24,714 nucleotides of DNA from a virus: positions 1-24,714 of IMG/VR virus record IMGVR_UViG_3300042502_000401; one strand, given 5' to 3'. Made by a program: the position numbers and the translations under genes. The notes below the pieces were generated by a model. It made no database searches. It had not been told where the DNA came from and saw only the letters and a list, made by a program, of their open reading frames with translations. The first letter of the stretch is position 1. The number at the start of each line of letters is the position of its first letter. Below, one piece after another: positions 4,173 through 22,619 of this stretch.

Positions 4173-5855
4173 TTATTTGTAAACAATATAATTACCCAAT
4201 ACCAACACATCCATTTCCGTATCATAGAAGGTTTGTAAGGCATCTTCCGGCGTTAAAACCATAGTTTTATCCTTTACATTGAATGATGTGTTTAATAAAA
4301 TTGGATATCCACTCAATTTCTCATATTTCCTCAATAACCTGTATATTCGGTTGTTTGAAGTGGTAAATATAGTTTGAATTCGAGCAGTTCCATCCACATG
4401 AGTTACTGCTCCTAACTTTTCCTGATATTCAGTTCTGACTTTAACCACCTGATTCATATATGGAACATCTCCATCCGTTTCAAAATACTTATCTTGCACA
4501 TCTTGCAATACCATAGGTGCAAATGGTCTAAATCCTTCTCTTTTTTTGATTACCTTATTAATCTTATCTTTCATTTCAGCCTTTAAAGGTGATGCAAGGA
4601 TTGAACGATTACCCAAAGCCCTAGCTCCAAACTCAATACTTCCATAAAACCAACCAATTACCTTTTCATTATGTAATTCTTCAGCAACTTTGGTTAATAA
4701 CTCCTCATCGTTACTATATTTTACAATTTTAGATGGATCTATCGTTTCCACAACCCTACCATATCCATATTCCGGCCCCAAAAATGGGTTTCTTGTAATT
4801 CTACCTTTAAATTCGGTATCATTTAACACACTATAATGAACACAAGCACCAATAGCAGAACCGGCATCGGATGGTGCGGATGGTATCCATAGTTTTTTAT
4901 ACTTTGTATTACGGAATACCTTACCATTAGCAGTTCCATTATATGCACATCCACCACTCAAACATAAATTAGGGTTACCATTCGTATTTATACTATTTAG
5001 AATTGCAAATAAAACATCTTCATATACTTGCTGAACTGCAAATGCCAAATCTTCATGTTCCGCTGTAATTGGTTCTTTTGAATCTCTTGGTAAGATTCCT
5101 AAACATTCAACCAATTTGTGATTAAACATTAATTTATCATCTCTATCCCAACAAAACTTCTCCATATCACAATTTAATCTTCCAGCTCCAAATTTAATAA
5201 GTTGTCCTACTAATTTAGTATATTTACTCTTAGAACCATACGATGCTAACCCCATAACCTTATATTCTCCCTCATTTGGTTTAAATCCTAAGTAAGATGT
5301 CATAGCTGAATAAAACAACCCCAATGAATGTGGATATTGAGCTACACTTTTATATTTTATTGATTTTTCTTTATGAGAACCATATGATATTGTATCAATT
5401 TCACCAACTCCATCTACAGATACCACATCAGATTCTAAAAAATCAGAAGTAAATGCTGAATAATAAAGATGCGATTTATGATGCTCTGAATAAAATATAG
5501 TATCGGATATTGATTTCAGTAACTTATGTATTTTAATTCTATTTAAAGTTATTTCAACTAAAGATTTAGTTACATGAATTGGTGCTTTAAAGAAATTTGT
5601 TTTAAAATTATCCCAAACTCTTTTAAATTTTAATTTTGGTTCTTCGTAATAGCAAACCGCACTTATATCCTCTTTACTAATTTTATATTTCTTAAAAATG
5701 TAATCTATTGTATTTTGCGGAAATGAACTATCATGTTTTATTCCTGTAAATCTTTCTTCTTCACACGCAAACATTAACTTGCTATTTTTGAATAGACATG
5801 CTGATGAATCGTGGTAAAATGCCGATATACCTATTATGTATTTATCGTTTTTCAT
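4173..5855 (-). CDS. NodU/CmcH-family O-carbamoyltransferase
   Basis: The 560 residues are close to the usual length of the NodU/CmcH/TobZ family. The N-terminal Kae1-like domain shows GISAFYHDSSACL (9-21), CEEERFTGIKHDSSFP (31-46), the metal-binding SEHHKSHLYYSAF (H125, H126, H129) and VDGVGE (147-152). The middle carries NEGEYKVMGLASYG and SGGCAYNGTANGKV. The C-terminal domain has GSIEFGARALGNRSILASP and EGFRPFAPMVL. Members transfer a carbamoyl group from carbamoyl phosphate, via a carbamoyl-adenylate, to a hydroxyl of a sugar or antibiotic. Nothing key appears missing, so it is probably active, most likely in O-carbamoylating a sugar made or attached by the neighbouring genes. It is the last gene of the cluster and overlaps the SGNH gene upstream by 14 bases. 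Confidence 0.95.
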   Translation of the reverse strand: MKNDKYIIGISAFYHDSSACLFKNSKLMFACEEERFTGIKHDSSFPQNTIDYIFKKYKISKEDISAVCYYEEPKLKFKRVWDNFKTNFFKAPIHVTKSLVEITLNRIKIHKLLKSISDTIFYSEHHKSHLYYSAFTSDFLESDVVSVDGVGEIDTISYGSHKEKSIKYKSVAQYPHSLGLFYSAMTSYLGFKPNEGEYKVMGLASYGSKSKYTKLVGQLIKFGAGRLNCDMEKFCWDRDDKLMFNHKLVECLGILPRDSKEPITAEHEDLAFAVQQVYEDVLFAILNSINTNGNPNLCLSGGCAYNGTANGKVFRNTKYKKLWIPSAPSDAGSAIGACVHYSVLNDTEFKGRITRNPFLGPEYGYGRVVETIDPSKIVKYSNDEELLTKVAEELHNEKVIGWFYGSIEFGARALGNRSILASPLKAEMKDKINKVIKKREGFRPFAPMVLQDVQDKYFETDGDVPYMNQVVKVRTEYQEKLGAVTHVDGTARIQTIFTTSNNRIYRLLRKYEKLSGYPILLNTSFNVKDKTMVLTPEDALQTFYDTEMDVLVLGNYIVYK

Positions 5856-6570
5856 TTTCTAATTCTTTTATTAAAAAGTGGCCCCATTCTTTATGTGCCT
5901 CTTTTGATGGATGATTGCGTGGTAAAAATCCCTCACCCATAAATTTTATGTGTTCATACATTGTTCCAAATGTAAATTCATCGGGCAATTGTGACCATAA
6001 TGAATTTAAATCTAATTGAAAATGTGGTTTACCATAATTATCTATTAAATCCGTTGGTTCTTTTGGAAGTTTATATTCGTAAAAACTATTAAAGAAATAA
6101 TATGATATATTATGTTTTTCCAAAAATGCAGATAACGAAATAATATGATTAAATGTTCTGATATACGATGGTATATCCGAAGTTTGGTTTAAAACAAATT
6201 GATCTTCAGTTGTCCTATTTGTATCCGGCTCACCCCATTTATCATATCCCACCCACAATCTTTCCTGTTGGTATTTATTACCATCCCACCATTCAAATCG
6301 AGTAGGTGCAGTCCAACCTATTACTACTATAAGATTTGATGCATTAATCCAACCATTATCTTCACTCCAAACAACTCTATTACTTAACCAATGGGAAACA
6401 TCTCTCATTGTTTGTCTATAAATATAATCATTAGAAACACCAGCCGATGCATTATTACAATCCATTGCATTTAAATTATTAGCAACATGGTGTGAGAATC
6501 TTTCCGTTTTTTTATCTTCTAACTCAGCTCCCCATACTACCGAATCTCCGTGACTATATAACGCTAACAT
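5842..6570 (-). CDS. SGNH/GDSL-like hydrolase or acyltransferase, copy 1 (GDS type)
   Basis: The 242-residue protein has the block I motif SHGDSVVWGAEL near the N-terminus (candidate nucleophile S10), a block II-like ASAGVSNDYIYRQ (G44, N47), a block III-like VVIGWTAPTRFEWW (83-95) and a C-terminal RNHPSKEAHKEWGHFL with candidate His at 220. The canonical DxxH is not obvious, as Asn-His stands there. SGNH enzymes cleave or transfer acyl groups, often acetyl, on glycans. No signal peptide or membrane segment is seen, so it should act in the cytoplasm. It overlaps both neighbours (14 bases with the carbamoyltransferase, 17 bases with the next SGNH gene), which indicates coupled translation. The fold assignment rests on motifs; substrate and even catalysis are unproven. 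Confidence 0.75.
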   Translation of the reverse strand: MLALYSHGDSVVWGAELEDKKTERFSHHVANNLNAMDCNNASAGVSNDYIYRQTMRDVSHWLSNRVVWSEDNGWINASNLIVVIGWTAPTRFEWWDGNKYQQERLWVGYDKWGEPDTNRTTEDQFVLNQTSDIPSYIRTFNHIISLSAFLEKHNISYYFFNSFYEYKLPKEPTDLIDNYGKPHFQLDLNSLWSQLPDEFTFGTMYEHIKFMGEGFLPRNHPSKEAHKEWGHFLIKELENEKR

Positions 6571-7402
6571 CTTTTAATAATTTTCTTTTAACAATTTCCG
6601 AATGAATTAATTCAGCTATAAAGCCATATCCAATTCTGTTTGGATGTGGTCCATCAGAACATTCTCTTACAACTTTGTGGTCATCTTCCCAAAGTGCATA
6701 TGGTAACGATGGATCTATTTCATCTTTTCTATCTAATAGATATTCTGATAATGTGTAATTTGGTAGTATCCAATTTTCTAATTTTACTTGTTCATAAAAT
6801 GAAACTTTTTTACAAAGAATATTTTCAAATGCATTTAAAAATAGATAATCAATATCCAATGATTCTAATAATATTTGTAAATTGCAAACATAGTTCATAG
6901 CAATTTCATGTAAAAATTCATAACTAAATCTATTAACTATAAAATCTTTATATAACTTAACTACACCATCTCTCATTTCATCATTTTCTATTTGGTCTAT
7001 CCAATTTAAATTTAAAACTGCCGATGGTCGAATATGGCATTCGTTTGAATAATTAATAAATCCGTTTGCCTCATAATTAGCAGTATCTAAAAAATTTAAT
7101 GGTTCTCTTATTATAGATGAAAAACATACAATTACCAAATCTCCTTTTTTAAGATGACCCTCATGTAATCTATGCATTACTTCTCTATAAATTTCAAAAT
7201 TAGAATATCCAGCTGCTCCAAAATTATTTACTTTATATTTGTTTTTTAAAAGTGTATTTAACTGACCTGGCCATGCATATAATTTTCTTTCGTTATCCCA
7301 GTTTAAATCATATCTATCACTCATTGGAATTTGCCCTCTTCCGGGTTCCCACTCAACTCCAACACCCTGTGTCCAACTATCACCAAAACAATGTATTTTC
7401 AT
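6554..7402 (-). CDS. SGNH/GDSL-like hydrolase or acyltransferase, copy 2 (GDS type, complete DxxH)
   Basis: At 282 residues this is the copy closest to a classical SGNH enzyme. It shows KIHCFGDSWTQGVGVEW (S9 as nucleophile), NNFGAAGYSNFEIYREV (oxyanion-hole G65 and N68), GDLVIVCFSSIIREPL in the block III position, and a C-terminal SDGPHPNRIGYGFIAELI with D250-x-x-H253. All four block residues are therefore present, and an active esterase or acyltransferase is plausible. It is cytoplasmic by appearance, with no leader peptide. One base separates it from the stop of the next upstream SGNH gene, and it overlaps the downstream one. Its neighbours suggest a glycan substrate, for example O-acetyl removal or transfer, but this is inference from context. 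Confidence 0.85.
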   Translation of the reverse strand: MKIHCFGDSWTQGVGVEWEPGRGQIPMSDRYDLNWDNERKLYAWPGQLNTLLKNKYKVNNFGAAGYSNFEIYREVMHRLHEGHLKKGDLVIVCFSSIIREPLNFLDTANYEANGFINYSNECHIRPSAVLNLNWIDQIENDEMRDGVVKLYKDFIVNRFSYEFLHEIAMNYVCNLQILLESLDIDYLFLNAFENILCKKVSFYEQVKLENWILPNYTLSEYLLDRKDEIDPSLPYALWEDDHKVVRECSDGPHPNRIGYGFIAELIHSEIVKRKLLKDVSVI

Positions 7403-7403
7403 A

Positions 7404-8309
7404 TCACTTAATTAAATTTAATAATTCTTCTTTAACAAATCTTTCCATCATTTTAGGAGATGGATGTCCCCAACCATTATGTTGTATTTTTAAATATTCT
7501 TCGTATGTATTACCATTGGATTCCTGAAATGGAGATTCTCCATTATGATTATCAATTGTCCATTCCAATAAACCATTATAGTTTTTATAATGCCAATGTA
7601 ATTTACTATCAATTGGTAATTCGTTGATATATGGTTTAAGAATCTCATGCTTATCAAACCATATTGTTTTTGTTGGTATATCCGAATTGTTTTCAGGTGC
7701 CCCAAATAAAACTTCTCTGGCTTCATATGAATATGGATTCCTCATACTCATATAATTATGTTGTATTTCATTTTTATCACAAAATAAAACTAAATGAGAC
7801 CAAGCTTCCAACCAACTAATTGTTTGATTTAGAATATTGTTCCAATTCACTTCCAATTCCCAATATTTTACTGCATTATCAATACCCAACCCATCTAAAG
7901 CATCATCAGGCGGTGCGTATCCACCCGTTAAAAAGAATAAACCATTTTCATTCTTCCAATTATTCCAATACATAAGTGTATGAGGTTGTTGAATAATTTT
8001 TATAGGATTATCATTTGTAATATATATGGATTGTCTTGTTGGGTCTGACCATTGAATGATTGTATGTATATTTTTTACATCAACTCCCTCTTTAATTAGT
8101 TTTTGTATCCAATAAAAGATAATCCTACACATAGAAACATTATCATTAGTAGCCCCACCCAAATTATATACCAATACATCATTACCTAATTCCTTTTGTA
8201 AGTAATATGGCCAAGAATATCTATCCTCTGGTCCTTGATTGAATGGTGCATCGGGATTAAACCTAACATTTTTTGTAAATGAACAACCCGTGCATAATAT
8301 ATGTTTCAT
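7404..8309 (-). CDS. SGNH-like protein, copy 3 (GCS type)
   Basis: The 301 residues start MKHILCTGCSFTKN, a block I variant in which the Asp before the nucleophile Ser (S10) is replaced by Cys. Block II-like VYNLGGATNDNVSM has G52 and N55; a block III-like TIIQWSDPTRQ sits at 83-93; and the C-terminal NGWGHPSPKMMERFVKEEL carries candidate H282 without a clear DxxH Asp. The same layout (GCS, then WSxPxR, then HP) recurs in the copy at 13655, so they form a subfamily within this window. It lies between another SGNH gene and the radical SAM gene, with 1- and 5-base gaps. The short leader contains AGGA, the nearest thing to a Shine-Dalgarno in the cluster. Enzyme activity is uncertain. Confidence 0.7.
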   Translation of the reverse strand: MKHILCTGCSFTKNVRFNPDAPFNQGPEDRYSWPYYLQKELGNDVLVYNLGGATNDNVSMCRIIFYWIQKLIKEGVDVKNIHTIIQWSDPTRQSIYITNDNPIKIIQQPHTLMYWNNWKNENGLFFLTGGYAPPDDALDGLGIDNAVKYWELEVNWNNILNQTISWLEAWSHLVLFCDKNEIQHNYMSMRNPYSYEAREVLFGAPENNSDIPTKTIWFDKHEILKPYINELPIDSKLHWHYKNYNGLLEWTIDNHNGESPFQESNGNTYEEYLKIQHNGWGHPSPKMMERFVKEELLNLIK

Positions 8310-8314
8310 AATTC

Positions 8315-10240
8315 CTATTTTATTGTTTCCAAAAAGTTTTTACCAAAACTTCTTCTTCTTGCAAAGAATAAGCTTTCCATAAACCATGCCAAATCCTTGC
8401 TACGAATTGGGTCATGTGGATATGTTATTTTTATAGTAGTTTCCTCACCTTTCAATTCAGAATCCATATCTATAATATATTCCAATAAATTATAATTCAT
8501 ATTAAAACTATAATCTATCAAATTTCTTTGTTCAGCTACCACACATTTGTTTAACATCATTAAATCTTGTGTAATCTCAATTGGTAACTGATATGTATCG
8601 ATGAATCTACTCAATAACTCATACATATGTTCATATTTCTCATCTGAATGAACTCTAAATAGGGTTCTATATTGATTTGTAGATGCGTTTATACGAACCG
8701 GTCCTATTGTGGTATCTATTCTTTCACCTTTATCAAACCAATTCATCATAATATCACTAAGAGTATCTTCCTCTTCTTTCCAAAACGGATCAGATTGTAA
8801 AAACTCCCTAAATTTAGTATAAAACTCTTTATATGTATCTCCTTTATGTTTTCTAATGAATCTGGCAGCAATTTGAGAGAATCCACCCGTATGCCACGTT
8901 ATTAAAAACCAAGATAACTTATAAGCTTCTATCATTTCGTTAATATTCATAGTTGATGTTGATACAACTATCTCACTATGTTCAGGTGCCTCATCATCTG
9001 AAGCATTTGGGAAGTAATCGTAAACATATTGTCCTCTAATCGTATGGGATTCTCTTTGAGAAAGATTCATCTCAGCGTTTTCTAATATTTGAGCCTGCCA
9101 TGCTTCAATACTATCATGCTGCCCCACTTCCAATACACCAAACATCGTATCTGTCCAACTTTCTAATGTTTCACCAGGTAATCCAATGATTAATTCGGTG
9201 TTTAACGGAACTCCCATCATTCTACACTCCTCAAATATATCCGATATCTTATTAATACCCAAGTTATTCCTTTTAATTGTCTTTAATGTGTTCTCATCCA
9301 ACGATTGTAAGCTAATTGTTAACCCATTATTGAAGTGTCCGCTATTAATTAGCTTTTTAGCTATAGCAACTACCTCAGATTTCTGATTTTTAGCCCAACT
9401 CCATCCTGTTCTATACGGATATCCTGTTCTTTTCTGAACTTCTATTAGTTTATCCACAATCATATTATCTCTTTCAACGAATATACCAAAGTTGGCATCT
9501 GCTACATCCAAATAGCCTATCTTATTATCAGCCATCCACTCTAATTCGTGAAATACTCTAGTCAAACCAAATTGTTTTACCTTACTATAAGTTAAAGAAC
9601 CCCAATCACAAAATGTGCACTTATAAGGACACCCTCTATTAGTTTCTAATGTTCCGTTCCATTCGTTTTCTAGCGGCATTATATCATCAAATACACCCGT
9701 TAGATATGGAGATGGAACATCATCTAGTGTTTCAATTCGGATAGCACTACCAGTGTTTAAAACCTCACCATTTACATTAATAAGTAATCCAGGTATTAAA
9801 TCATACCACCTACCCAATACTCTACTCTCCAAAACCTTTGTGAATATAAATTCACCTTCGCTTTTAACAACCAAATCAGCAAATGGCATCCATTTACTAA
9901 AAATTTGAGAATCACTAATTGGTGGTTCTGGTCCTCCGAATATTACCAATACATTTGGATTGATTTCTTTTATTTTCTTAGCCAATGTAAAGTTATAATT
10001 ACGATTCCACACATAAGTTGAAAATGCAACTATATCCATTTTAGATAATTCAATAGCTAACCGATTTATTGGTTCTCTATTGTATATTATTCTATGAAGT
10101 TTAATACCAACCTTCACCAATTCATTTGTTTGAGCATGTGCCCATAATAAACCACAACTATATGGTAAATATGCAGCTATTCCACCAGGCCCTTGTCTGA
10201 AATTTGGTTGAACGAATGATATTTGTAACTTATTATTCAA
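8315..10240 (-). CDS. B12-binding-type radical SAM enzyme
   Basis: The 641 residues begin with a Rossmann domain of the B12-binding type: LQISFVQPNFRQGPG, AYLPYSCGLLWAHA (24-37) and IFGGPEP (100-106). The radical SAM domain follows, with RGCPYKCTFCDW holding the 4Fe-4S cysteines C204, C208 and C211 in CX3CX2C spacing, DVADANFGIF, and TELIIGLPGET. The long C-terminal part (about 400-641) has no motif I recognise. I see no DxHxxG, the usual lower-ligand motif for cobalamin. Such enzymes catalyse radical methylations or rearrangements; a sugar substrate is inferred only from the neighbours. The start must be TTG: no ATG or GTG lies between the upstream in-frame stop and the conserved N-terminus, and the TTG is four bases after the stop of the DegT-like gene. 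Confidence 0.9.
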   Translation of the reverse strand: MNNKLQISFVQPNFRQGPGGIAAYLPYSCGLLWAHAQTNELVKVGIKLHRIIYNREPINRLAIELSKMDIVAFSTYVWNRNYNFTLAKKIKEINPNVLVIFGGPEPPISDSQIFSKWMPFADLVVKSEGEFIFTKVLESRVLGRWYDLIPGLLINVNGEVLNTGSAIRIETLDDVPSPYLTGVFDDIMPLENEWNGTLETNRGCPYKCTFCDWGSLTYSKVKQFGLTRVFHELEWMADNKIGYLDVADANFGIFVERDNMIVDKLIEVQKRTGYPYRTGWSWAKNQKSEVVAIAKKLINSGHFNNGLTISLQSLDENTLKTIKRNNLGINKISDIFEECRMMGVPLNTELIIGLPGETLESWTDTMFGVLEVGQHDSIEAWQAQILENAEMNLSQRESHTIRGQYVYDYFPNASDDEAPEHSEIVVSTSTMNINEMIEAYKLSWFLITWHTGGFSQIAARFIRKHKGDTYKEFYTKFREFLQSDPFWKEEEDTLSDIMMNWFDKGERIDTTIGPVRINASTNQYRTLFRVHSDEKYEHMYELLSRFIDTYQLPIEITQDLMMLNKCVVAEQRNLIDYSFNMNYNLLEYIIDMDSELKGEETTIKITYPHDPIRSKDLAWFMESLFFARRRSFGKNFLETIK

Positions 10241-10244
10241 AACT

Positions 10245-10886
10245 TTAAATGTAATCTTTATATATTGTTTGCTCCGTTAAATCTTTATACATCCAACTAC
10301 CACCACAATGTGGATTAAATGATTTTATTTTGTCTGAATGAAATATTTCCAATCCTCTCTTTGCTTGCTCAGGAGTCATATACATATGCCAACCAATACA
10401 ATCAAACTCATCATCTTTATATAATTTAGTTTTATCTCTACCATCGTATATCATAGGTCTTGCCCATTGATTAAAAGTATCATCATTTGTAAGGATTATC
10501 CCACCCGTTCCAATATTTAGGATTTTTTTAAAATGAAAAGAAAGTATCATATAGGATTCATCCAATGTATCATAATACATTCCTTCATAGAACGCAGTTG
10601 CTGCATCATATATTCCAGTATAACCCAATTGATACATACCATCCCATTGAGTATCTTGAAATACCGGCTTATTGCCTGATAAGATGATTTGGTTAGGTAC
10701 CGAAACATATGTTCTTGTTGGTATTCCTATTTCTTGTCCAACTATTCCTAAATAATGTAATACTAAACGAATTGCGTTTGTATTAGAATCACATGCTATT
10801 GCATATTTTGAACCACAATATTCTGCTATCTCTTTTTCAAAATGAGTAACCCAATCCCAACTATCGTTTATTGTATAATCTCTCAT
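10245..10886 (-). CDS. Miniature DegT/DnrJ/EryC1-type PLP aminotransferase homologue
   Basis: The sequence is clearly of the sugar aminotransferase family but has only 213 residues against about 370-400 normally. Present are FEKEIAEYCGSKYAIACDSN (16-35), YDAATAF with the PLP-pyridine Asp at D94, and SFHFKKILNIGTGGIILTND with the Schiff-base Lys at K121. The stretch that usually separates the second strand from the Asp motif is shortened, and the C-terminal small domain is absent: the chain ends soon after TPEQAKRGLEIF. No frameshift remnant is seen; the next gene starts four bases later. It may be a stable PLP-binding mini-enzyme, a partner for a host full-length enzyme, or a decaying gene. 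It overlaps the SGNH gene upstream by 26 bases. Confidence 0.85.
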   Translation of the reverse strand: MRDYTINDSWDWVTHFEKEIAEYCGSKYAIACDSNTNAIRLVLHYLGIVGQEIGIPTRTYVSVPNQIILSGNKPVFQDTQWDGMYQLGYTGIYDAATAFYEGMYYDTLDESYMILSFHFKKILNIGTGGIILTNDDTFNQWARPMIYDGRDKTKLYKDDEFDCIGWHMYMTPEQAKRGLEIFHSDKIKSFNPHCGGSWMYKDLTEQTIYKDYI

Positions 10887-11655
10887 AATGCTTAATTATA
10901 TATTTTGAAACTTCCTTTGCCCCAATAATATTGGTATGACCCGAATTTCCCTCACAATATCTTTCATCTCCCCATTTGTGTATAAATTGTAAAATAGGAG
11001 TACCATCCACATCAACATATTTTTCATCAAATAATAAATCCACCATATTTTTATCAACAATACTCTTTACAAAATTCAATGAATTATCTAAATTAAATTC
11101 TTCTTTTTCAAATTTATAGTCTCGGATGTAAACCTTATTGTTTTCAAAATATAGTTTATTATCATTTACAGCATCAAAAAACATATATGGAATACCTTTT
11201 GAATCACAAAAAGTTTTAACCATTAACATCGATTGATATGTTTTCATCAATGCCCAATTTAAATCAGAAAAAAATGGATATAATGCATCTCTATGTTTAT
11301 ATATCCAATAACCTGGCGTATCATCTCCACAATCATCTGATATAAAATCGTTTGGTTGTGCACTCCATATCCATTTACCAATTTTACCACCCATATCATC
11401 AAAATGAATCATCTGTCTCATCATTTCGGTCCAAGCTATTATAACAACTGAACTATCCCATAATTCTGGATTTTTTTGTAAAAATGTTATAGTTTGTAAC
11501 GATATCCATTCATTACTCATTCCACCAGATGCTAAGTTTTTTAATTTTAAATTAAGAGTATCAGCTGTCCAATATGCCCATGATGCTGTTTCACCCATAT
11601 CATGTCCTTCTGTAAACGAATCACCACATACTATAAGGTTTTTTATATTTTGCAT
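10861..11655 (-). CDS. SGNH/GDSL-like hydrolase or acyltransferase, copy 4 (GDS type)
   Basis: The 264-residue protein shows KNLIVCGDSFTEGHDMGE (candidate S13), a clear block II LKNLASGGMSNEWISLQ (G45, N48), a block III-like VIIAWTEMMRQMIHF (71-85) and C-terminal GNSGHTNIIGAKEVSKYI with candidate H240. The His is preceded by Asn-Ser-Gly rather than Asp-x-x, as in copy 1. There is no signal peptide. It reads into the DegT-like gene by a 26-base overlap and follows the glycosyltransferase-like gene by 6 bases. It is most like copies 1 and 2 in its GDS block. The substrate is unknown; an O-acyl group on a cytoplasmic sugar intermediate is a guess from context. Confidence 0.8.
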   Translation of the reverse strand: MQNIKNLIVCGDSFTEGHDMGETASWAYWTADTLNLKLKNLASGGMSNEWISLQTITFLQKNPELWDSSVVIIAWTEMMRQMIHFDDMGGKIGKWIWSAQPNDFISDDCGDDTPGYWIYKHRDALYPFFSDLNWALMKTYQSMLMVKTFCDSKGIPYMFFDAVNDNKLYFENNKVYIRDYKFEKEEFNLDNSLNFVKSIVDKNMVDLLFDEKYVDVDGTPILQFIHKWGDERYCEGNSGHTNIIGAKEVSKYIIKHYERLYNKR

Positions 11656-11661
11656 AGTTTG

Positions 11662-12876
11662 TTATAAAAAATTATTTAAATTATATAAATCATATTCCTC
11701 CATTCTATTTGTTAATATTTGAAAATTACTATGAACTCTGTTTAAATTATTTACATAATATTTGTGCAGTTCATCTTTAGTCATACTATTGATAACTTTT
11801 AAGTTTTTTTCAAATTGTTCAAATATTTCATTTTTTTTAAATTTAGGAGTTAAATCAAATAAATCCTCAAACATATCAAATCCCAAATCTTTCAAATACC
11901 TAATTGATGCAGGTTGTCCAAGTATTAATGGAATGTTAAATCCATAAAATGCTTTTAAAGATTTTTCCGAAAATACTGCATTTTTTGATAATTCATTTTG
12001 AAAGAAATATGTTTCTGTTGTAATAGAAACATAACTTTGTAACGAGTATTGAGGAGGAATTGCAAACGCAACAAATACATTTGGATTTACATCAGTAGTA
12101 TCACACAAATATGGTATCTCAAATTCATCTAAATATTTTAAATATTCGTTTGTAGATTTAAATTCTAAAAAATCAACAAAACTTTGATATTGCTCTTCAT
12201 CATTCTTAAAATATGCAAAATCTACATAAGAAAAATACCCATCATTTAGCATGTTATTATTTTTAATAAGTTCATAACACTTTAAACGATGCGGTTTATG
12301 TATTCCATTAAAAAAATTATATTTTTTTTCCCTAACTAATGTATTAGTTTGTGAAAATAACCCATCTATAAATGTATTGTAATTCCATTGTAAATATGCA
12401 TTCATTATATAGTAGTTTGCAACTTTATCCATAGCAGATATAGTAGGTATAATAGAATACGGGTCTTTTAAATTATTTATTATATGGAATACATTTGTAT
12501 TTTCGAAAGATTCTCTTGTATATTCTAAAAAAGTTTCATCTGTCAATACTATAAATTTTATATTTGGATATTTTTTAGATAAAAAATCAATATAATTATT
12601 ATTTGGTAATGTACAATTTTCAAAAATATCTATGTTAAAAAATAATATTGAAATATCCGGATTGGAATCTATATAATTTGATATGGTTTCTTTGTTAAAC
12701 AAAACATCACCTCGTTGGATTTCAATATGAACATAATTATTTTTTTTTAAAATTCTTTTTATTGCATTTGTTTTTGATAATAACCTTTCAAATATTATTG
12801 GCATATTAACATATTGTAATAATATCTTTGGGTTTCTATCAAAATAGCAATTTTTATATTCTAATATATGTATCAT
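11662..12876 (-). CDS. Glycosyltransferase-like protein, copy A
   Basis: Of its 404 residues the N-terminal half (about 1-190) is unlike anything I recognise. The C-terminal half contains HKPHRLKCYELI near 190-205, SYVSITTETYFFQNE near 277-291 and FSEKSLKAFYGFNIPLILG (302-320), then RYLKDLGFDMFEDLFD (326-341). The pattern (sequence before SEK, a short spacer, PLILG, then LKDLGF) resembles the nucleotide-sugar-binding region of alpha-1,3-fucosyltransferase-type and related phage glycosyltransferases. The gene at 18063 has the same block with identical spacing, so the two are paralogues. Its role would be transfer of a sugar to a glycan or protein. It overlaps the dioxygenase gene upstream in an ATGA junction. 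Family assignment is moderate; donor and acceptor are unknown. Confidence 0.65.
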   Translation of the reverse strand: MIHILEYKNCYFDRNPKILLQYVNMPIIFERLLSKTNAIKRILKKNNYVHIEIQRGDVLFNKETISNYIDSNPDISILFFNIDIFENCTLPNNNYIDFLSKKYPNIKFIVLTDETFLEYTRESFENTNVFHIINNLKDPYSIIPTISAMDKVANYYIMNAYLQWNYNTFIDGLFSQTNTLVREKKYNFFNGIHKPHRLKCYELIKNNNMLNDGYFSYVDFAYFKNDEEQYQSFVDFLEFKSTNEYLKYLDEFEIPYLCDTTDVNPNVFVAFAIPPQYSLQSYVSITTETYFFQNELSKNAVFSEKSLKAFYGFNIPLILGQPASIRYLKDLGFDMFEDLFDLTPKFKKNEIFEQFEKNLKVINSMTKDELHKYYVNNLNRVHSNFQILTNRMEEYDLYNLNNFL

Positions 12877-13658
12877 TTGTTTTTTGGGTTATATCCATAA
12901 TCTTCACCACCCTTACCAACAAAGTGACCATTCCATTCTGCTTCTTCGTGCAATTTGTGATGAGAATATTCATTTGTTTTATAAGCGCTTCTGTGAGGTG
13001 GGTTGAATTTATCTGGTTCTGATGTTGAAATATAATAGAAGAAACGAATTGCACATCTACCATATACATCATCGGAGCATTCTACTTTACTTACACTATG
13101 TACGGGTCCTTTTGGGACATTTTCTGATATTATAAATCTATTAAATAAAGGTGCTACCGATTCTACTATTTTTGCGTTTGGATCTAATTCAGGATTAGCT
13201 GTCCAAGTTACATTATGCCCTCCCCACTCTTCTTTCCAATTTGGTGTTATATAAAGTAATGAAGTTAACTTTCTATGTAATCTTAATCTATCATTCCAAT
13301 TAAAATCATAATGAGGTGATAATACAGTTCCGTTTCTTAAAATAGAATACCCAGCTCCAACTAAATGCGGGTCTGGTAATAATCCACTTATACCTGTCAT
13401 TTGTTCCAACTCATAAAGAAACTCACCTGAATGCATTATATCATATGTAACTTTATGTGCGGTTGGTAGAGAAATTAAATCATTAAACTCTTCCATACGA
13501 GAACCAGCTCGTGTAAATACAGTCCATCCACCTTTTGGTGCATTCATACATTCCTCATACAACTTCATACAAGTCTCTTCATCCAAAAAATTATCTATTG
13601 TGGCTCTAGCAAATCCCTCTGCTTTGGTTTTTTCCCACTCTTTCTTTTTTTGTATCAT
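12873..13658 (-). CDS. 2-oxoglutarate/Fe(II) dioxygenase, prolyl 4-hydroxylase-like fold
   Basis: The 261-residue protein carries the facial triad: SPHYDFNW gives H116 and D118, and KGPVHSVSKV gives the distal H187. An Arg at 201 or 205 in YGRCAIRFFYYIS would bind the 2-oxoglutarate carboxylate. LTSLLYITPNWKEEWGGHNV matches the core strand seen in 2OG-FeII_Oxy_3 proteins. Members hydroxylate proline in peptides and also free amino acids or other small molecules; the sequence does not decide which. All catalytic residues are in place, so activity is likely. It sits in ATGA junctions with both neighbours (glycosyltransferase-like downstream, SGNH upstream). Possible targets are a glycan intermediate or a virion protein. 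Confidence 0.92.
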   Translation of the reverse strand: MIQKKKEWEKTKAEGFARATIDNFLDEETCMKLYEECMNAPKGGWTVFTRAGSRMEEFNDLISLPTAHKVTYDIMHSGEFLYELEQMTGISGLLPDPHLVGAGYSILRNGTVLSPHYDFNWNDRLRLHRKLTSLLYITPNWKEEWGGHNVTWTANPELDPNAKIVESVAPLFNRFIISENVPKGPVHSVSKVECSDDVYGRCAIRFFYYISTSEPDKFNPPHRSAYKTNEYSHHKLHEEAEWNGHFVGKGGEDYGYNPKNK

Positions 13659-14677
13659 AATCGTATTGCATTGTGTTTAGTTCTACTCCATCTATCAGTA
13701 AAATCAAAAGTGAATTCACCTATAAATGGAATCAAATCGTTATAAATGTATTCCTTAAAGAAATCAATATAAACTGAATCATGTGGATGTGCCCCAAATG
13801 AAGTAACATAACCCTCATTGGGAATATCCCATTCGTTTGCACCCGATGTGTATGCTATATGTCCAAATCTTTCCATTGCATATTCATCAATACCACCAAA
13901 ATTGAAATTTTTCGTTTCGTAAAATGCGAATTTAGTTAAATCAATACTATCCCAAATTTGATTTAAATAATCTGAGAATTCTTTTATATGTGTTAATTTT
14001 TTTAGATTTGGTAGTTCTATTAATTCTTTATTAAAAATAGAATCATTACCATATTCGTGTGAGAAGTTTTTATAATACCCCTCAAATGTATTATTCATCA
14101 AAAAGAACTTATATTGTATTTTATTTGCATTTAAGTAATTTTGTAAATCTAATATATTAGTTAGATATTGCTCTAATCTATCTATTGGTTTATGCGATAT
14201 ATGCAAATTTTCTTTAAATAACTCTAAATAAGTTATTAAGTTAGAATCTTCTAATTCATCAAAGCTATCAACATCAGGGTTTAGATAAACTCTATCACCA
14301 ATTATAACATTCAATGATTTGTATTTTGCTATATAATCATACGAATCATCCGTTCTATTAAAGTTATTATCCAATACAAAAGTTCCCTCTGAATTTTTAA
14401 CATTATTTAATATATGATTTGAGTTTTCTTTGGGTAATTCAATAAATAATCTATTCGGTTGTGACCATTCGGTTACTACAAATATATCAGATGGGTTTAC
14501 ACCTTTTTTTAAAAGTTTAGATATAGTATAAATAATACTTCTTTTTTGATACTCAGCCCCATGCGAATCACAATGTAAATCAATAACCTTAAATTGATTA
14601 TCATTACCTTTAGTGAATTCTTTCATTGAACGAAACATCACACCATAACTACATCCAGTATTAACTATATATTTCAT
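13655..14677 (-). CDS. SGNH-like protein, copy 5 (GCS type, tandem duplicate)
   Basis: The 340-residue protein begins KYIVNTGCSYGVM (S10 in a GCS block), and its block III-like strand is FVVTEWSQPNRLFIELP (66-82), close to TIIQWSDPTRQ of copy 3. A block II Asn is not evident. The C-terminus has FGAHPHDSVYIDFFKEYI with candidate H297 and H299. It shares long colinear stretches with the next gene upstream: FFLMNNTFEGY against SFLMNNVFDGW, YLNQIWDSIDLTKFAFYET against YTKALWDCIDLDMFVFHTT, and GGIDEY in both. The pair is therefore a tandem duplication. It lies in ATGA junctions on both sides. Catalytic competence is doubtful given the missing block II Asn and absent DxxH. Confidence 0.65.
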   Translation of the reverse strand: MKYIVNTGCSYGVMFRSMKEFTKGNDNQFKVIDLHCDSHGAEYQKRSIIYTISKLLKKGVNPSDIFVVTEWSQPNRLFIELPKENSNHILNNVKNSEGTFVLDNNFNRTDDSYDYIAKYKSLNVIIGDRVYLNPDVDSFDELEDSNLITYLELFKENLHISHKPIDRLEQYLTNILDLQNYLNANKIQYKFFLMNNTFEGYYKNFSHEYGNDSIFNKELIELPNLKKLTHIKEFSDYLNQIWDSIDLTKFAFYETKNFNFGGIDEYAMERFGHIAYTSGANEWDIPNEGYVTSFGAHPHDSVYIDFFKEYIYNDLIPFIGEFTFDFTDRWSRTKHNAIRL

Positions 14678-15591
14678 TTAAACCAATCATTTATTTGATT
14701 AATCATATATTCTTTTGCAAACTCATAATAAATTTTTCCGGTTGGGTGATTACCAAAATAAAAATTTTTAATAGATGGGTCTAAAAAATACTTTTTATCC
14801 GGAAATTTATCTAACAAATATTCATCAATTCCACCATACTTATTTTCATTGGTAGTATGGAATACAAACATATCTAAATCTATACAATCCCACAAAGCTT
14901 TAGTATAATCGCTTATTTCCGAAATGTGCTTAGTTCCTTTGGTGCTTGGTAAATTAAATTCTTTATGATTGTTGTATATGTGGTTATAATCGGAATCCCA
15001 ACCATCAAAAACATTATTCATTAAAAATGATATTGTTTTAATATTATTCTTTTTTACAAAAGATTGTAAAGTAACAATACTACTCAAATATGATTCAAAG
15101 TGCTCTTGTATAGTTTTTTTGGTGTATATAATACTACTTTGATAATCATACCAATCTTTAATACTTCCTTTTAAATTTCTATCAGATATTAAAAAAGAAT
15201 AAATTTGATTCTTAACCTTTACCAAAGATTGTGTAAATTGTATAGGAGAATAAGTATATTCTCTAATATCATAATTATCAAATTTTAAAATATCATTAGC
15301 AATTTCATAATACTCAATTGGTAATTTTACAGAAGTTCTTCCTATTTGAGTAAAATTATTAATAACCAATATATCTTTTGGTAATACACCATTTTCCAAT
15401 AAAGAACTAACTGCTATTATTATTGCCTCTGTTATAAATTCATTACTGGCGGAACTAGCTCCTAACATTAGGAATTCTACATCATCGTAATCAAGTTCAT
15501 GCCCATTTTCAGATATTCTTAATGGTAATAAATATTTTCCAGGATCTTTGTATGCATAACTACATCCACCTATTATGATATATTTTTTCAT
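14674..15591 (-). CDS. SGNH-like protein, copy 6 (GCS type, tandem duplicate)
   Basis: I place the start at the ATG at 15591, which overlaps the upstream stop in a TAATG junction; the slightly longer frame would need a TTG at 15597. That gives 305 residues. Block I is KYIIIGGCSYAYKD (S11), block II FLMLGASSASNEFI (G44, N50), the block III-like strand ILVINNFTQIGR, and the C-terminus FGNHPTGKIYYEFAKEYM with candidate H282. It is the paralogue of the gene directly downstream. The GCS form keeps the small residue and Ser of block I but has Cys at the Asp position, as in copies 3, 5 and 7. Function is unknown beyond the likely fold. Confidence 0.65.
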   Translation of the reverse strand: MKKYIIIGGCSYAYKDPGKYLLPLRISENGHELDYDDVEFLMLGASSASNEFITEAIIIAVSSLLENGVLPKDILVINNFTQIGRTSVKLPIEYYEIANDILKFDNYDIREYTYSPIQFTQSLVKVKNQIYSFLISDRNLKGSIKDWYDYQSSIIYTKKTIQEHFESYLSSIVTLQSFVKKNNIKTISFLMNNVFDGWDSDYNHIYNNHKEFNLPSTKGTKHISEISDYTKALWDCIDLDMFVFHTTNENKYGGIDEYLLDKFPDKKYFLDPSIKNFYFGNHPTGKIYYEFAKEYMINQINDWFK

Positions 15592-15995
15592 TACCAACTA
15601 ATTTCCCAGTCTTTAAAATCTGCTGCTAAGCAGTCTATTTTGTAATCTTTTCTACCACCAACTACTTCTTGTATTTTATTTTTTGCAGTATTACGAATGC
15701 CATTTAAACCATGCGTTAGTGCTAATGCATTTGGTCCTTCAGTTCCATTTCTCACATTTGATTCATTGTGCCAAATATGTAAATTCATCTGAGAAAGGAC
15801 TACTATTGCTCTAATTGTTTCCGCTGTAATTGGTTCTTTACTTTCATTCAAATATAATTGAATATCATGCACAATATCTTTAATTTCTTGCGCATACTCT
15901 TCTTTGTGTTTTGAAATAAACACTTCTTTTAATTGGGATATTGATAATCTATCAATTAATTCAGCCAATGTTGGTAAATACTTTCTTTCTGCCAT
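15591..15995 (-). CDS. DUF4254-like helical protein of a glycan cluster
   Basis: The 134 residues start at an ATG (15995) five bases after the stop of the 42-residue gene; a longer frame from a TTG at 16016 would overlap that gene and is less likely. The sequence MAERKYLPTLAELIDRLSIS, then QLKEVF, LNLHIWHN-like QMNLHIWHNESNVRNG, and LTHGLNGIRNTAKNKI recalls DUF4254 proteins, with their IDRLSI...LK opening, a central LWxxE motif and an LNxxRN motif. Those are small all-helical proteins often found next to lipopolysaccharide or sugar genes in bacteria. The function of that family is not known to me. Similar proteins occur in marine phages. The resemblance is by eye and needs a profile search. 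Confidence 0.75.
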   Translation of the reverse strand: MAERKYLPTLAELIDRLSISQLKEVFISKHKEEYAQEIKDIVHDIQLYLNESKEPITAETIRAIVVLSQMNLHIWHNESNVRNGTEGPNALALTHGLNGIRNTAKNKIQEVVGGRKDYKIDCLAADFKDWEISW

Positions 15996-15999
15996 ATTG

Positions 16000-16128
16000 T
16001 TAGTGTTTATAGACAAACGGGTCTCTTTTTTTGAGTTCGGCCAATCTTTCTTTGTAAAGTTTTTCTAACTTCTTCCTTTTACGCTTGTCTTGGAATTTTT
16101 TCCACAATTTTTTAATGTAATTAACCAT
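16000..16128 (-). CDS. Small lysine-rich protein, 42 residues
   Basis: An ATG at 16128 opens a 43-codon frame ending in TAA at 16000-16002. The product begins MVNYIKKLWKKFQDKRKRKK and ends LAELKKRDPFVYKH. It is very rich in Lys and Arg, with alternating hydrophobic residues that would make one amphipathic, strongly basic helix. It fills exactly the gap between two longer genes: 20 bases after the SGNH gene upstream and 4 bases before the ATG of the DUF4254-like gene. This tight fit, and a KKRDPF ending that I recall from similar small marine phage ORFs, argue it is real. It could bind RNA, DNA, membrane or its neighbour protein; none of this can be shown here. Confidence 0.7.
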   Translation of the reverse strand: MVNYIKKLWKKFQDKRKRKKLEKLYKERLAELKKRDPFVYKH

Positions 16129-16148
16129 AAAGATACGATTTTTTTTCC

Positions 16149-17117
16149 TTAAAACCAATTTTTTTCTAATAAATTTTTATAAATAACTCCCTCAATAATA
16201 TCCATACCTTTTGGACCGGCATGGCCCCCATCTACATTATAAGAAGTATCATGTGGTTTAAATTGATATAAACTCCATAAAACCACATCATCTATCTTAT
16301 ATTTGGGTTCAATCATATCGAAAATCCACCCACATTTGATGTTTTTAAAGTCATATACCATTTCATCAGTTGGATCATCGGTTTCAGTTGACCAAAATCG
16401 GTTTACCCACTCAAATTCAGATTCAGATTCATAGTAATTTCTGAAATTTAACTTATATGATAAGAATGGTGAATATCCATCTACTATTAAATGCCCAATT
16501 CCCATAGTTTTAAGTAACAAATGTAATGAAGAAATTCTTAAACCCCAATGCAACATCAATTCTTCAAATTGTTCGTGTATATATGGTGGGTCTATATCGT
16601 TATTATTACCCAATTTCCAAAAATGTCTACTATTTGGATAATGTTTATGTTCAGGAAAAAATCCCAATTTGCTTGTTTCCAAAAAATCACCCAATTCATC
16701 ATATAATTGAAACTCTTGATTAATGTCATCTAATCTATGGTTAATTGGTGTATCAAATCCATGTTTTTCAAAATCAATATAACCTTGAAATTGTAAATCG
16801 GTATGGGACATATATTTTATATTCCATTTTTCCCACATATCCGTTCTATTTGTTGCCAATTCCTCATAATTAACTCTACGGGCTAATTCAGATTTTTGTA
16901 AGATAAAGAAGCACTCATCCAATATATCTCTATTTCCGTTTATAAAAGACATTGTTGATGTTTCCACTTTATACCAACCAGTTCCAGCCGATGCTAAATT
17001 TATTAATTCAAGACCCAATCGTTTTGCTAATTTTACTGCCCAAGTTTCACCAACCGGGCACATTTGGCCGGAGGTTTGAGAACATCCATTTACCACCAAG
17101 TATTTATAGTTTTTCAT
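16149..17117 (-). CDS. SGNH-like protein, copy 7 (GCS type with DxxH)
   Basis: The 322-residue protein starts YKYLVVNGCSQTSGQM (S13), followed by a GETWAVKLAKRLG helix and block II-like INLASAGTGWYKVE, where Gly45 is kept but Gly-Trp replaces the usual Asn. A hydrophobic FFILQKSELARR strand (70-81) fits block III, and the C-terminus has NVDGGHAGPKGMDIIEGVIY with D296-x-x-H299. It is the only GCS-type copy with a proper DxxH pair. It has no signal peptide. It overlaps the SAM synthetase-like gene upstream by 14 bases. SGNH-fold origin is likely; the lost block II Asn leaves catalysis open. Confidence 0.72.
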   Translation of the reverse strand: MKNYKYLVVNGCSQTSGQMCPVGETWAVKLAKRLGLELINLASAGTGWYKVETSTMSFINGNRDILDECFFILQKSELARRVNYEELATNRTDMWEKWNIKYMSHTDLQFQGYIDFEKHGFDTPINHRLDDINQEFQLYDELGDFLETSKLGFFPEHKHYPNSRHFWKLGNNNDIDPPYIHEQFEELMLHWGLRISSLHLLLKTMGIGHLIVDGYSPFLSYKLNFRNYYESESEFEWVNRFWSTETDDPTDEMVYDFKNIKCGWIFDMIEPKYKIDDVVLWSLYQFKPHDTSYNVDGGHAGPKGMDIIEGVIYKNLLEKNWF

Positions 17118-18063
17118 ATTTTGTATTTAGATTAAAGTAACCCCATTTTGCCAATTCAATTAAGGAATTGGGAGTTGATTTTATTTTTTCTATAATATTA
17201 TTTTTTATGTCAATCAATTCATCAAACTTATTACAATTTTCAAAAAATGTCCCATTTTCTAAATGAATACCACCAATATTGCCCTTAATACCAAATTGTA
17301 TTGGGGTTGGGTTATTATGTGAATATGTTAACTCTACTAATGAATAGTTTAAATTTTCAATCAAACCCATTTTACCTGCAATTTCTTTTGAAACTAAATG
17401 AGAATATTTAGAATTTCTATAGATATCCAATCCAATAAAATTTGTATTACCATATGGTGAGCGTGGCCCATATGCGTTTATGATAAAATTTTCATTTGAT
17501 TTATATAACAACTGATTGATTATTGGACTCACCTTAATGTTAATACTAATATAATTTTCATCAATTAGATATTCATTTATTAAATCAATTATATAACTAT
17601 TATTTTCATAATTTGTTTCTGCAAAAATATCAATTTGTTTACCATTTATTACTAATCCAATTTTTATAGCTTCATTTATTTTATTGTATATAGTTTTTGT
17701 TAGTTTTGTAACTAATAAATGTTCAAATGGAATACCTTCTGCGTTTTCATTTGAAGCATATCCCAAAAATGTTCCAGCATTGATTTCAAAAATATCGTTT
17801 GATAATGGTATTTGCTTAATAGATAAAACCATATTTATATCAATTTCTATACAATTTGATATGAATTGTTTGATGGTTTCATATGAAAAATGATTATCAG
17901 AACTAACCCAACCATTTATATATAATGTATTATTCATAACATATGAAAATACATCCGAATAATATAATTCATTTGAATCTGTGTATAGTTGAACTACCGA
18001 TTCCGCTGCTATATCACAAACTTTACTATAATGTTTAGGACTTATAAATTGAGATGTTCTCAT
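17104..18063 (-). CDS. Degenerate S-adenosylmethionine synthetase (MetK) homologue
   Basis: The 319 residues align by eye with MetK (E. coli 384) from end to end. TSQFISPKHYSKVCD (3-17) matches the TSESVSEGHPDKIAD opening without gaps, keeping His11 and Lys14 but changing the Pro-Asp to Tyr-Ser. GTFLGYASNE (97-106) matches GLMFGYATNE, but the preceding GAGDQ is lost. FIINAYGPRSPYGN (193-206) and LDIYRNSKYSHLVSKEI (212-228) match FVIGGP...TGRK and VDTYGG...RSAAYAARYV; the intervening HGGGAFSGKDPSKVD segment seems absent. The end (AKWGYFNLNTKYEKL) recalls YGHFGR...WEKTD. In MetK the lost residues bind metal, phosphate and ATP, so canonical synthesis of SAM is unlikely. The role is unknown. It starts in a TAATG junction. 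Confidence 0.75.
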   Translation of the reverse strand: MRTSQFISPKHYSKVCDIAAESVVQLYTDSNELYYSDVFSYVMNNTLYINGWVSSDNHFSYETIKQFISNCIEIDINMVLSIKQIPLSNDIFEINAGTFLGYASNENAEGIPFEHLLVTKLTKTIYNKINEAIKIGLVINGKQIDIFAETNYENNSYIIDLINEYLIDENYISINIKVSPIINQLLYKSNENFIINAYGPRSPYGNTNFIGLDIYRNSKYSHLVSKEIAGKMGLIENLNYSLVELTYSHNNPTPIQFGIKGNIGGIHLENGTFFENCNKFDELIDIKNNIIEKIKSTPNSLIELAKWGYFNLNTKYEKL

Positions 18064-19202
18064 TATATTAAATCATTTTGTATTATAAAATTATGAAGTT
18101 CTAAATAAGCTTCCGATTTTAATTTATAAATATTGGCACAATTTTTTACAAATCTCTTACGATTTTGATTATAGAACTCTAACATATCTAATTGAGTTAA
18201 TTTATTTAGTTCTTCTACAACTATTTTAATTCTTTCTACATGATTTTGTTCTTTATCATAATTGTGATTTATAAAATCATCAAATACATCAAATCCTAAA
18301 TTTCTAATCACATCTACATAACCAGGCAATCCTATATATAAAGGAAGTTGATGTGTTTTGAATGGTTTCCAAGCTTTTTCAGTAAGAGTTATTGTTCCAT
18401 ACTTAAAATTATCAGAATCATCAAACCCAGTAGCATTATCGGTAACTAAATTTAAAATATTAGCGTAGTATTCTCTTAAAAGCAAATCAGGTCTTTCACC
18501 CATTTCACCATTAACTATTATTGGTAAACTATTTGATATGGAATTAAGTAAAACAAATTCTTCATTTGTAATTTCTCCATTTAATAGCATATTATCTATG
18601 AATATATTGTAACTTTCAATATCAAATTTGTTATTACCATAAAATAAAAAAGATATATTATTATTTATATTTGAAATTGTCCCATCTAAATTTACATACC
18701 CATTTTTAATCAATTCAATAAGTAATAATATTCTTTGAGTTCGCATCGAACCATTTAATGATAAAAATCCATCTCTTTTATTATAAATTGATGTATCATT
18801 TAATACAAATTGAGAATCGTGTTGTTCTACACAATAGTTTTCAAAAAAAGGTAAGAATGAAAGCTTATAAGATTGTAGCATTTTAACATTGCTACCTACA
18901 TTAACATCAAACACACTATCTACTAATAGATAAAATTGAACATCTTTGTGTTTATTGGTTAATTCTAAAAAAATATCAATAAAATTATCTAAATTTCCGG
19001 ATTCTGAAATGATATCTATTAAGATTTTAGTATCTTTGTGTGCATATTGTAACATATCATCCAAATTATCTTGGAATGAATCTCGTTCACATACAATTAT
19101 ATCATAGATTCCATTTGCATTGTCACGAGTATCCGGCAATGAATAGAATGGTTGTAATATTCTAATGGATACATACCCATAATCTAATATTCTTTTGTTC
19201 AT
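18063..19202 (-). CDS. Glycosyltransferase-like protein, copy B
   Basis: The 379-residue protein is a paralogue of the gene at 11662. Its block TEKAWKPFKTHQLPLYIGLP (274-293) followed by VIRNLGFDVFDDFIN matches copy A position for position, and the C-terminal helices (KLTQLDMLEFYNQNRKRF against SMTKDELHKYYVNNLNRVH) also correspond. The TEKAWKPF...LPLYIG layout is the better match to the ITEKLW...PVVxG signature of fucosyltransferase-like enzymes. The N-terminal half (MNKRILDYGYVSIRIL onward) is not recognised. MRTQRILLLIELI (about 152-164) parallels KPHRLKCYELI in copy A. A sugar transfer role is inferred. It is joined to the MetK-like gene by a TAATG overlap and follows the TPP enzyme half by 8 bases. 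Confidence 0.68.
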   Translation of the reverse strand: MNKRILDYGYVSIRILQPFYSLPDTRDNANGIYDIIVCERDSFQDNLDDMLQYAHKDTKILIDIISESGNLDNFIDIFLELTNKHKDVQFYLLVDSVFDVNVGSNVKMLQSYKLSFLPFFENYCVEQHDSQFVLNDTSIYNKRDGFLSLNGSMRTQRILLLIELIKNGYVNLDGTISNINNNISFLFYGNNKFDIESYNIFIDNMLLNGEITNEEFVLLNSISNSLPIIVNGEMGERPDLLLREYYANILNLVTDNATGFDDSDNFKYGTITLTEKAWKPFKTHQLPLYIGLPGYVDVIRNLGFDVFDDFINHNYDKEQNHVERIKIVVEELNKLTQLDMLEFYNQNRKRFVKNCANIYKLKSEAYLELHNFIIQNDLI

Positions 19203-22618: not shown

Positions 22619-22619
22619 A

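Follow-up and report, generated by a model that had tools for sequence, protein, structure and literature searches.

The 24,714-base virus record IMGVR_UViG_3300042502_000401 of IMG/VR, analysed here at its full length (the window), carries on its minus strand seven genes whose products form a subfamily of the SGNH fold in which the active site is shifted and which is found arrayed in phage sugar gene clusters. Judging from a tail sheath gene near the start of the window (47% identity to the sheath of Microcystis phage Mel-JY01), the virus reads as a contractile-tailed phage. A preliminary description of the window had singled out the seven genes as divergent SGNH/GDSL-like proteins, each opening with a GDS or GCS block I at residues 8–13, and all seven open reading frames (ORFs) are indeed present on the minus strand, with GDS in the genes starting at 5842, 6554 and 10861, GCS in the other four, and the Ser at residues 9–13. 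The observation is real: homology and non-redundancy come out stronger than was first stated, and function weaker. The seven genes, named below by their start coordinates, are (aa, amino acids):

SGNH-fold protein A, 5842–6570, minus strand: 242 aa; GDS block I; Ser10/Arg91/His220
SGNH-fold protein B, 6554–7402, minus strand: 282 aa; GDS block I; Ser9/Arg99/His253; Asp at His-3
SGNH-fold protein C, 7404–8309, minus strand: 301 aa; GCS block I; Ser10/Arg92/His282
SGNH-fold protein D, 10861–11655, minus strand: 264 aa; GDS block I; Ser13/Arg80/His240
SGNH-fold protein E, 13655–14677, minus strand: 340 aa; GCS block I; Ser10/Arg76/His297
SGNH-fold protein F, 14674–15597, minus strand: 307 aa; GCS block I; Ser13/Arg87/His284; TTG start, with an ATG two codons downstream
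SGNH-fold protein G, 16149–17117, minus strand: 322 aa; GCS block I; Ser13/Arg80/His299; Asp at His-3

One family with a shifted active site

The seven proteins belong to a single SGNH-fold family, the fold being modelled for two of them and reaching the other five through homology. Iterated profile searches started from any single one of the seven recovered the other six (531 distinct ORFs in 53 loci). Leave-out profiles, one per gene and built without the window genes and without members at least 35% identical over 100 residues, scored the seven genes at expect values (E) of 3e-13 to 4.1e-31. Among the controls (330 further genes from the neighbourhoods plus 700 shuffles, with rows up to E 10), these profiles matched the gene L041:18580-19419 in five of the seven runs (E 4.7e-8 to 2.7e-10), which is probably a family member dropped by recruitment, while the sole other row was the window gene 23167–24150 (E 0.46, one run). 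Chance GxS...H motifs, considered as an alternative source of the resemblance, are ruled out by the leave-out profiles together with the shuffles.

Matches of single sequences to Pfam are weak: 5842 alone passes the cut-off of DUF6071 (PF19547; 31.8 vs. 27 bits), 6554, 7404 and 10861 match it under the cut-off, and 13655, 14674 and 16149 are absent at E 1, while 6554 matches Lipase_GDSL_2 under the cut-off (E 3.1e-5); PHROGs returned weak matches only for the family. A profile of 53 representatives (one per cluster at 60% identity, at least 190 aa, two of the 98 recruited ORFs being left out as members of fewer than four of the seven sets, and one representative being the truncated N-terminal part of a fusion) found GDSL esterases in the PDB, with a best E of 9.7e-5. 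The AlphaFold models of 7404 (predicted local distance difference test score, pLDDT, 87; predicted template-modelling score, pTM, 0.88) and 10861 (pLDDT 92, pTM 0.90) both had TesA as their best structural match, with Z 13.2, a root-mean-square deviation (rmsd) of 3.5 and 169 aligned residues for the former, and Z 15.8, rmsd 3.2 and 171 aligned residues for the latter. The top 50 rows per model were mostly GDSL/SGNH esterases, thioesterases, acetylesterases or PatB, which bears out the proposed SGNH/GDSL likeness for the two of seven proteins whose structures were predicted. Foldseek results were clear for the 10861 model (best E 2.7e-6), which at E <=0.001 also had 66 matches among predicted viral structures; the 50 of these that were shown are mostly unnamed or called 'SGNH_hydrolase' and come from uncultured Caudovirales phages. 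A 602-aa viral protein labelled 'Radical_SAM domain' is also among the fold matches, its alignment spanning 160 columns.

At a mean column identity of only 13% across the family, the Ser of block I, an Arg of block III and the His of block V are invariant in 53/53 representatives. The same three residues are invariant in all 65 distinct members found later via other genes (near-full-profile matches, 84 before identical ones were removed, falling into 38 clusters at 50% identity), although these three columns were part of the search profile itself. To place the block-III column, the sequences were aligned with E. coli TesA, where the invariant Arg aligns with the Arg of GGNDGLR (MAFFT and hhalign). 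At the position of the canonical Asn (GxND), however, none of the 53 representatives has Asn (Ser in 30, Thr in 19, others in 4), nor does any of the 65 later members, and the Asp at His-3 is found in 10/53 representatives and in two of the seven window proteins (6554 and 16149). Of the intermediate blocks first noticed, the Gly of block II is present in 36/53 at the best-aligned column; the Trp/Ser-Arg block is real, keeping its Arg throughout and a Ser or Thr four residues ahead of it in 49/53, but Trp in 23/53 only. As to the C-terminal helix said to contain a His, the conserved His of the seven proteins stands 19–43 residues ahead of the C-terminus and, in both models, immediately precedes the final helix. 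The catalytic Ser lies at most 20 residues from the start in 48/53 representatives, in which no signal peptide is apparent, and the hydropathy of the window proteins gives no clear membrane segment (top 19-residue mean 1.63, in 14674).

The literature definition of SGNH enzymes rests on Ser, Gly, Asn and His (excerpts of PMC9487903). Since the Asn is absent and the Asp mostly absent, the family, judged from its alignments, consists of SGNH-fold proteins that are not canonical SGNH hydrolases. This loss does not rule out catalysis, because the same excerpts describe the acyltransferase BcPatB1, in which an Arg takes the place of the block-III Asn in the oxyanion hole, CE2 enzymes, which have a Ser-His dyad, and SASA enzymes, in which the block-III Asn is missing. 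The preliminary description had also offered non-catalytic sugar binders, and one can picture such proteins as scaffolds on which glycan intermediates are kept for the enzymes encoded nearby, as the lost Asn and the mostly lost Asp might suggest; with Ser, Arg and His unvarying in every member tallied despite the low overall identity, this possibility is disfavoured and seems to us improbable.

Separate paralogues in recurrent arrays

In a tree of 85 members (85 of 92 rows, near-duplicate contigs having been dropped), which has long branches, the seven window genes correspond to seven label changes. Every window gene sits in its own supported clade of 3–16 rows (16 for 5842), in which its companions come from other phages and never from the window; deeper in the tree, 13655 and 14674 share an older and larger clade (99/99), and the clade uniting 10861 with 16149 is weak (80/78). 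A recent tandem duplication is ruled out by these seven separate supported groups, and the ratios of nonsynonymous to synonymous substitution rates range from 0.09 to 0.33 (one relative per gene; synonymous divergence about 1 for 6554). By their sequences, the seven genes are best read as ancient paralogues, separately maintained and non-redundant, in line with what had been proposed.

The search for similar multi-SGNH arrays was productive: arrays of 3–9 members recur in other uncultured virus contigs, for example with nine (one 276-kilobase (kb) record), eight (031951), seven (021091) and six (008267) members, and the locus L145 combines five members with the same neighbours as in the window. 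Counted over whole records, with split pieces of one reading frame counted once, members number 12 in G003 (276 kb), 10 each in G004 and G006, and nine each in G001 and G002. Two further contigs contain genes 100% identical to 7404, 14674 and 16149. DUF6071 is matched in 15 of 17 compared records (above the cut-off in 11); these records were picked for holding members, so that the presence of the family in 17/17 of them carries no frequency meaning. This Pfam family, whose cut-off 5842 passes, is nevertheless matched by only 9/53 representatives at E 0.01, and its name was not found in the open PubMed Central (PMC) papers searched.

Outside these contigs, tblastn with each of the seven genes found nothing in 50,697 annotated phage records (at E 1e-5 for four genes and 0.1 for three), and motif scans of bacterial genome contigs with the 5842 group and with the radical S-adenosylmethionine (SAM) enzyme, which reach close relatives only, gave no match either. 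Literature searches, limited to open PMC papers, found no description of such arrays, and single fold relatives carry the name SGNH in UniProt already. The initial impression that no described phage system has this composition therefore holds for the papers searched, but the multi-SGNH composition is shared with other uncultured phages and is not peculiar to the window phage.

The sugar gene cluster and the SEK family

From position 4173 on, the minus strand holds a tightly packed gene cluster with few genes lacking an assignment, which adjoins the tail sheath gene; at the same end of the window, 763–1251 may be the tube gene, by position alone. Besides the seven SGNH genes, the cluster contains:

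4173–5855, minus strand: O-carbamoyltransferase (NodU/TobZ/GdmN type), by its sequence relatives
8315–10240, minus strand: cobalamin-dependent radical SAM enzyme, a TokK and CysS relative
10245–10886, minus strand: compact DegT-type aminotransferase, 213 aa, present in 12/19 contigs compared
11662–12876, minus strand: SEK family protein, GT10-like by weak profile matches
12873–13658, minus strand: 2-oxoglutarate/Fe(II) oxygenase
15591–16016, minus strand: h141, a conserved 141-aa protein frequent in phage sugar clusters
17104–18063, minus strand: divergent S-adenosylmethionine synthase-like protein, by weak matches
18063–19202, minus strand: second SEK family protein, GT10-like by weak profile matches
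19211–19744, minus strand: thiamine-pyrophosphate (TPP) enzyme, E1-beta-like part, by weak matches
19749–20741, minus strand: NAD-dependent epimerase/dehydratase family protein
20725–21657, minus strand: NAD-dependent epimerase/dehydratase family protein
21989–22684, minus strand: TPP enzyme, E1-alpha-like
23167–24150, minus strand: third epimerase-family protein, BLAST-grouped with 19749 and 20725

The solved relatives of the carbamoyltransferase are GdmN, novobiocin carbamoyltransferase and TobZ, and the phage-borne radical SAM protein matches the methyltransferase TokK at E 2e-72 and CysS at E 4.8e-51. In the same cluster, 17104–18063 matches the NCBIfam metK model under its cut-off (E 3.7e-5) and a PDB entry at E 0.0038. 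The DegT-type protein is far shorter than the 360-position Pfam model, and the two TPP proteins are short, as if an enzyme with E1-beta-like and E1-alpha-like parts had been split within the sugar cluster. With its carbamoyltransferase, oxygenase, epimerases, cobalamin radical SAM enzyme and GT10-like proteins, the cluster agrees with the sugar-decoration setting originally envisaged, and a role of the array in this sugar cluster is moderately supported.

To avoid the bias of sampling on SGNH genes, loci were also gathered via h141, which is 69–91% identical in 11 other contigs compared and has at least 495 relatives in viral contigs (its best match to a known family is DUF4254, at E 0.001, with 5/12 members matching at E 0.05). 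The 73 loci obtained (best 80 of 495 relatives at an E limit of 1e-5, minus seven dropped as known contigs; many flanks short) hold epimerases (56), TPP enzymes (29), PfkB kinases (24), DegT proteins (21) and SGNH proteins (16, of which seven have at least three), with epimerases in 12 of the 16 SGNH-holding loci. Thus, h141 accompanies phage sugar clusters generally, and SGNH genes occur in a minority of them.

Within this sample, SGNH genes were present in 13/13 loci with SEK vs. 3/60 without (p 6.5e-12), or in 7/7 vs. 3/30 after dereplication (p 1.2e-5), in a test whose SEK profile derives from loci that carry SGNH and may be biased towards them; no neighbour other than SEK showed a positive link. 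When loci were gathered via SEK instead (best 80 of 172 relatives at an E limit of 1e-4, minus eight dropped as known contigs; many flanks short), 37/72 held SGNH genes. Moreover, the two families are fused in proteins of about 700 aa in two lineages: L029:7888-9999 matches both SGNH (E 2.4e-35) and SEK (E 4.7e-15), and L220:3013-5139 (708 aa) matches the L029 fusion at E 7.7e-43 over 738 columns. In a fusion test over nine neighbour families, SEK was the only fused partner. The SGNH family is therefore linked and fused to the SEK family. As for the second fusion, its gene lies about 2.8 kb ahead of a carbamoyltransferase gene and overlaps a thymidylate synthase gene at the end of the latter.

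Before wider members were included, SEK gave no useful match in PDB, NCBIfam, PHROG or Pfam; afterwards, one of ten distant members matched the Pfam family Glyco_transf_10 (E 2.4e-4), and the PDB profile search, read up to E 10, returned three fucosyltransferases and nothing else (E 0.0052, 0.014 and 1.7). These matches are weak and point in the same direction, and an identification of the SEK family as GT10-like glycosyltransferases appears moderately supported.

Possible functions of the array

The explanation that we favour, and to which we give about an even chance, is that the SGNH proteins are Ser-His acyl enzymes of the cytoplasm that work alongside GT10-like glycosyltransferases, every one of them acting on a separate target in a decorated glycan built by the phage. 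The cluster enzymes would make unusual nucleotide sugars and then assemble the decorated glycan, and O-carbamoylation, C-methylation, transamination, oxidation and glycosyl transfer would together yield highly decorated sugars. Each SGNH protein would go through a Ser-His acyl-enzyme to attach or take off an acyl group at a position or stage of its own, with the invariant Arg plausibly standing in for the oxyanion Asn, and the glycan would be destined for the virion or the host surface. The acyl chemistry, its donor and product, the choice between transfer and hydrolysis, the substrates, the position specificity, the role of the Arg and the destination of the glycan are points that we infer. 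The reaction is probably cytoplasmic, because no signal peptide is apparent and AT3 or MBOAT partners were not found, even if the host may supply a membrane acyl donor.

Several observations weigh against this explanation. Apart from the lost Asn and the mostly lost Asp, the 7404 model scores modestly in Foldseek (best E 3.2e-4, with template-modelling scores by query of 0.23–0.39 among the rows shown). AT3 (PF01757) and MBOAT (PF03062) were found in 0/17 records including the window, which may be fragments (in these searches, positive controls matched 10 and 4 of 14, respectively). In the h141-sampled loci, SGNH genes are not present within the flanks of 57/73, and DegT is negatively linked to SGNH (0/16 vs. 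21/57, p 0.0035), whereas a DegT gene accompanies the arrays found via SGNH in 12/19 contigs. Regarding SEK, besides the possible bias of its profile, that profile, of narrower make-up and run with default filters, missed the first fusion, and SEK profiles of narrower make-up have no useful PDB match. The Pfam family Glyco_transf_10 is weakly matched, under its cut-off, by one of ten distant members (E 2.4e-4) and by 0/20 other members.

Owing to the unusual site and the lack of a known donor, the strongest rival is that the fold has been reused for non-acyl chemistry, with nucleotide sugars as the substrates on which Ser, Arg and His would catalyse or assist phosphoester reactions or the transfer of sugars, the Arg binding phosphate. 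An invariant Arg without the oxyanion Asn, the failure to find a membrane partner for acyl donation and the tight linkage and fusion to GT10-like proteins speak for it. On the other hand, the invariant Ser-His pair and a fold resembling TesA and acetylesterases suit acyl chemistry, and an Arg oxyanion hole is on record in an acyltransferase, BcPatB1 (excerpts of PMC9487903), which leads us to regard the non-acyl option as unlikely.

The position of the cluster next to the tail sheath gene raises the question of virion-borne deacetylases, i.e., esterases acting on the host surface as in phage tail proteins. The family profile also matches a phage tail-associated lysin (E 9.2e-5), and, among the 53 members compared with PHROGs, four weakly match a tail-fibre PHROG and one a tail-protein PHROG. 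Yet, the SGNH proteins are mostly single-domain, their sole fusion partner among the nine families is SEK, and sugar genes keep company with them in loci sampled via other genes; only a slim chance is left to this alternative, slightly below that of the sugar binders.

Least probable of all is a part in DNA hypermodification, a subject raised by phage carbamoyltransferases, which can modify 5-hydroxymethylcytosine. A carbamoyltransferase is present in 14/17 records, and in four large relatives it starts 2.6–4.9 kb after a thymidylate synthase gene, which in one of the four is adjoined by the SGNH-SEK fusion. All four thymidylate synthases carry the motif PFNIASY, which we take to contain the ThyA Asn at position 177, i.e., the thymidylate type. 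Excerpts of PMC8670742 do tie pairs of thymidylate synthase and carbamoyltransferase to modified DNA, but they report that position 177 is Asp where contigs are modified and Asn where they are unmodified, the latter state being the one that the motif so read would fit, and they describe carbamoyltransferases flanked by glycosyltransferases in unmodified contigs. A search for TET/JBP found them in 0/17 records and is uninformative, as its control was likewise without a match.

We also compared the family and its setting with known systems. TesA-like SGNH/GDSL enzymes (E. coli TesA, CE2/CE3 acetylesterases) share the overall fold, the block-I Ser and the block-V His, whereas the phage family has mostly Ser/Thr instead of the Asn, an invariant Arg, a mostly lost Asp and arrays of paralogues. 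The peptidoglycan O-acetyltransferases PatB/PatB1 and the SGNH domains of OafA/OafB type are alike in fold (PatB Z 11.4–12.3), and atypical oxyanion holes have been described for PatB1 and OafA/OafB, but these systems work with AT3 or MBOAT membrane partners. The antibiotic tailoring enzymes TobZ, GdmN, novobiocin carbamoyltransferase, TokK and CysS are relatives of the cluster's carbamoyltransferase and radical SAM enzyme, which here have SGNH and GT10-like genes as their neighbours in a phage. Sugar gene clusters are familiar in aquatic phages. According to excerpts of PMC3037559, the T4-like cyanophages P-SSM2, S-SM2 and S-SSM7 are myoviruses that also bear lipopolysaccharide/sugar gene clusters, and the SGNH family profile matched 0/5 chosen phage records including these three, in a run without a positive control. 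Cyanophage S-SCSM1 has fucosyltransferases and epimerases, according to excerpts of PMC9602691, and the term SGNH does not occur in that paper, the S-SCSM1 record itself not having been searched.

More tentatively, and with rather less confidence than in the acyl reading as such, the family might represent a new catalytic class of the SGNH fold, with a Ser-(Ser/Thr)-Arg-His site, arrayed in phages with GT10-like enzymes to make an antibiotic-like, multiply decorated glycan without a membrane acyl donor. The S, S/TxxxR, H signature, the h141 marker and the SGNH-SEK fusions provide sequence handles for finding such clusters, and the invariant Arg without an oxyanion Asn poses a concrete catalytic question. 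Altogether, a recurrent, non-redundant SGNH array tied to GT10-like proteins suggests a heavy investment of some phages in glycan decoration.

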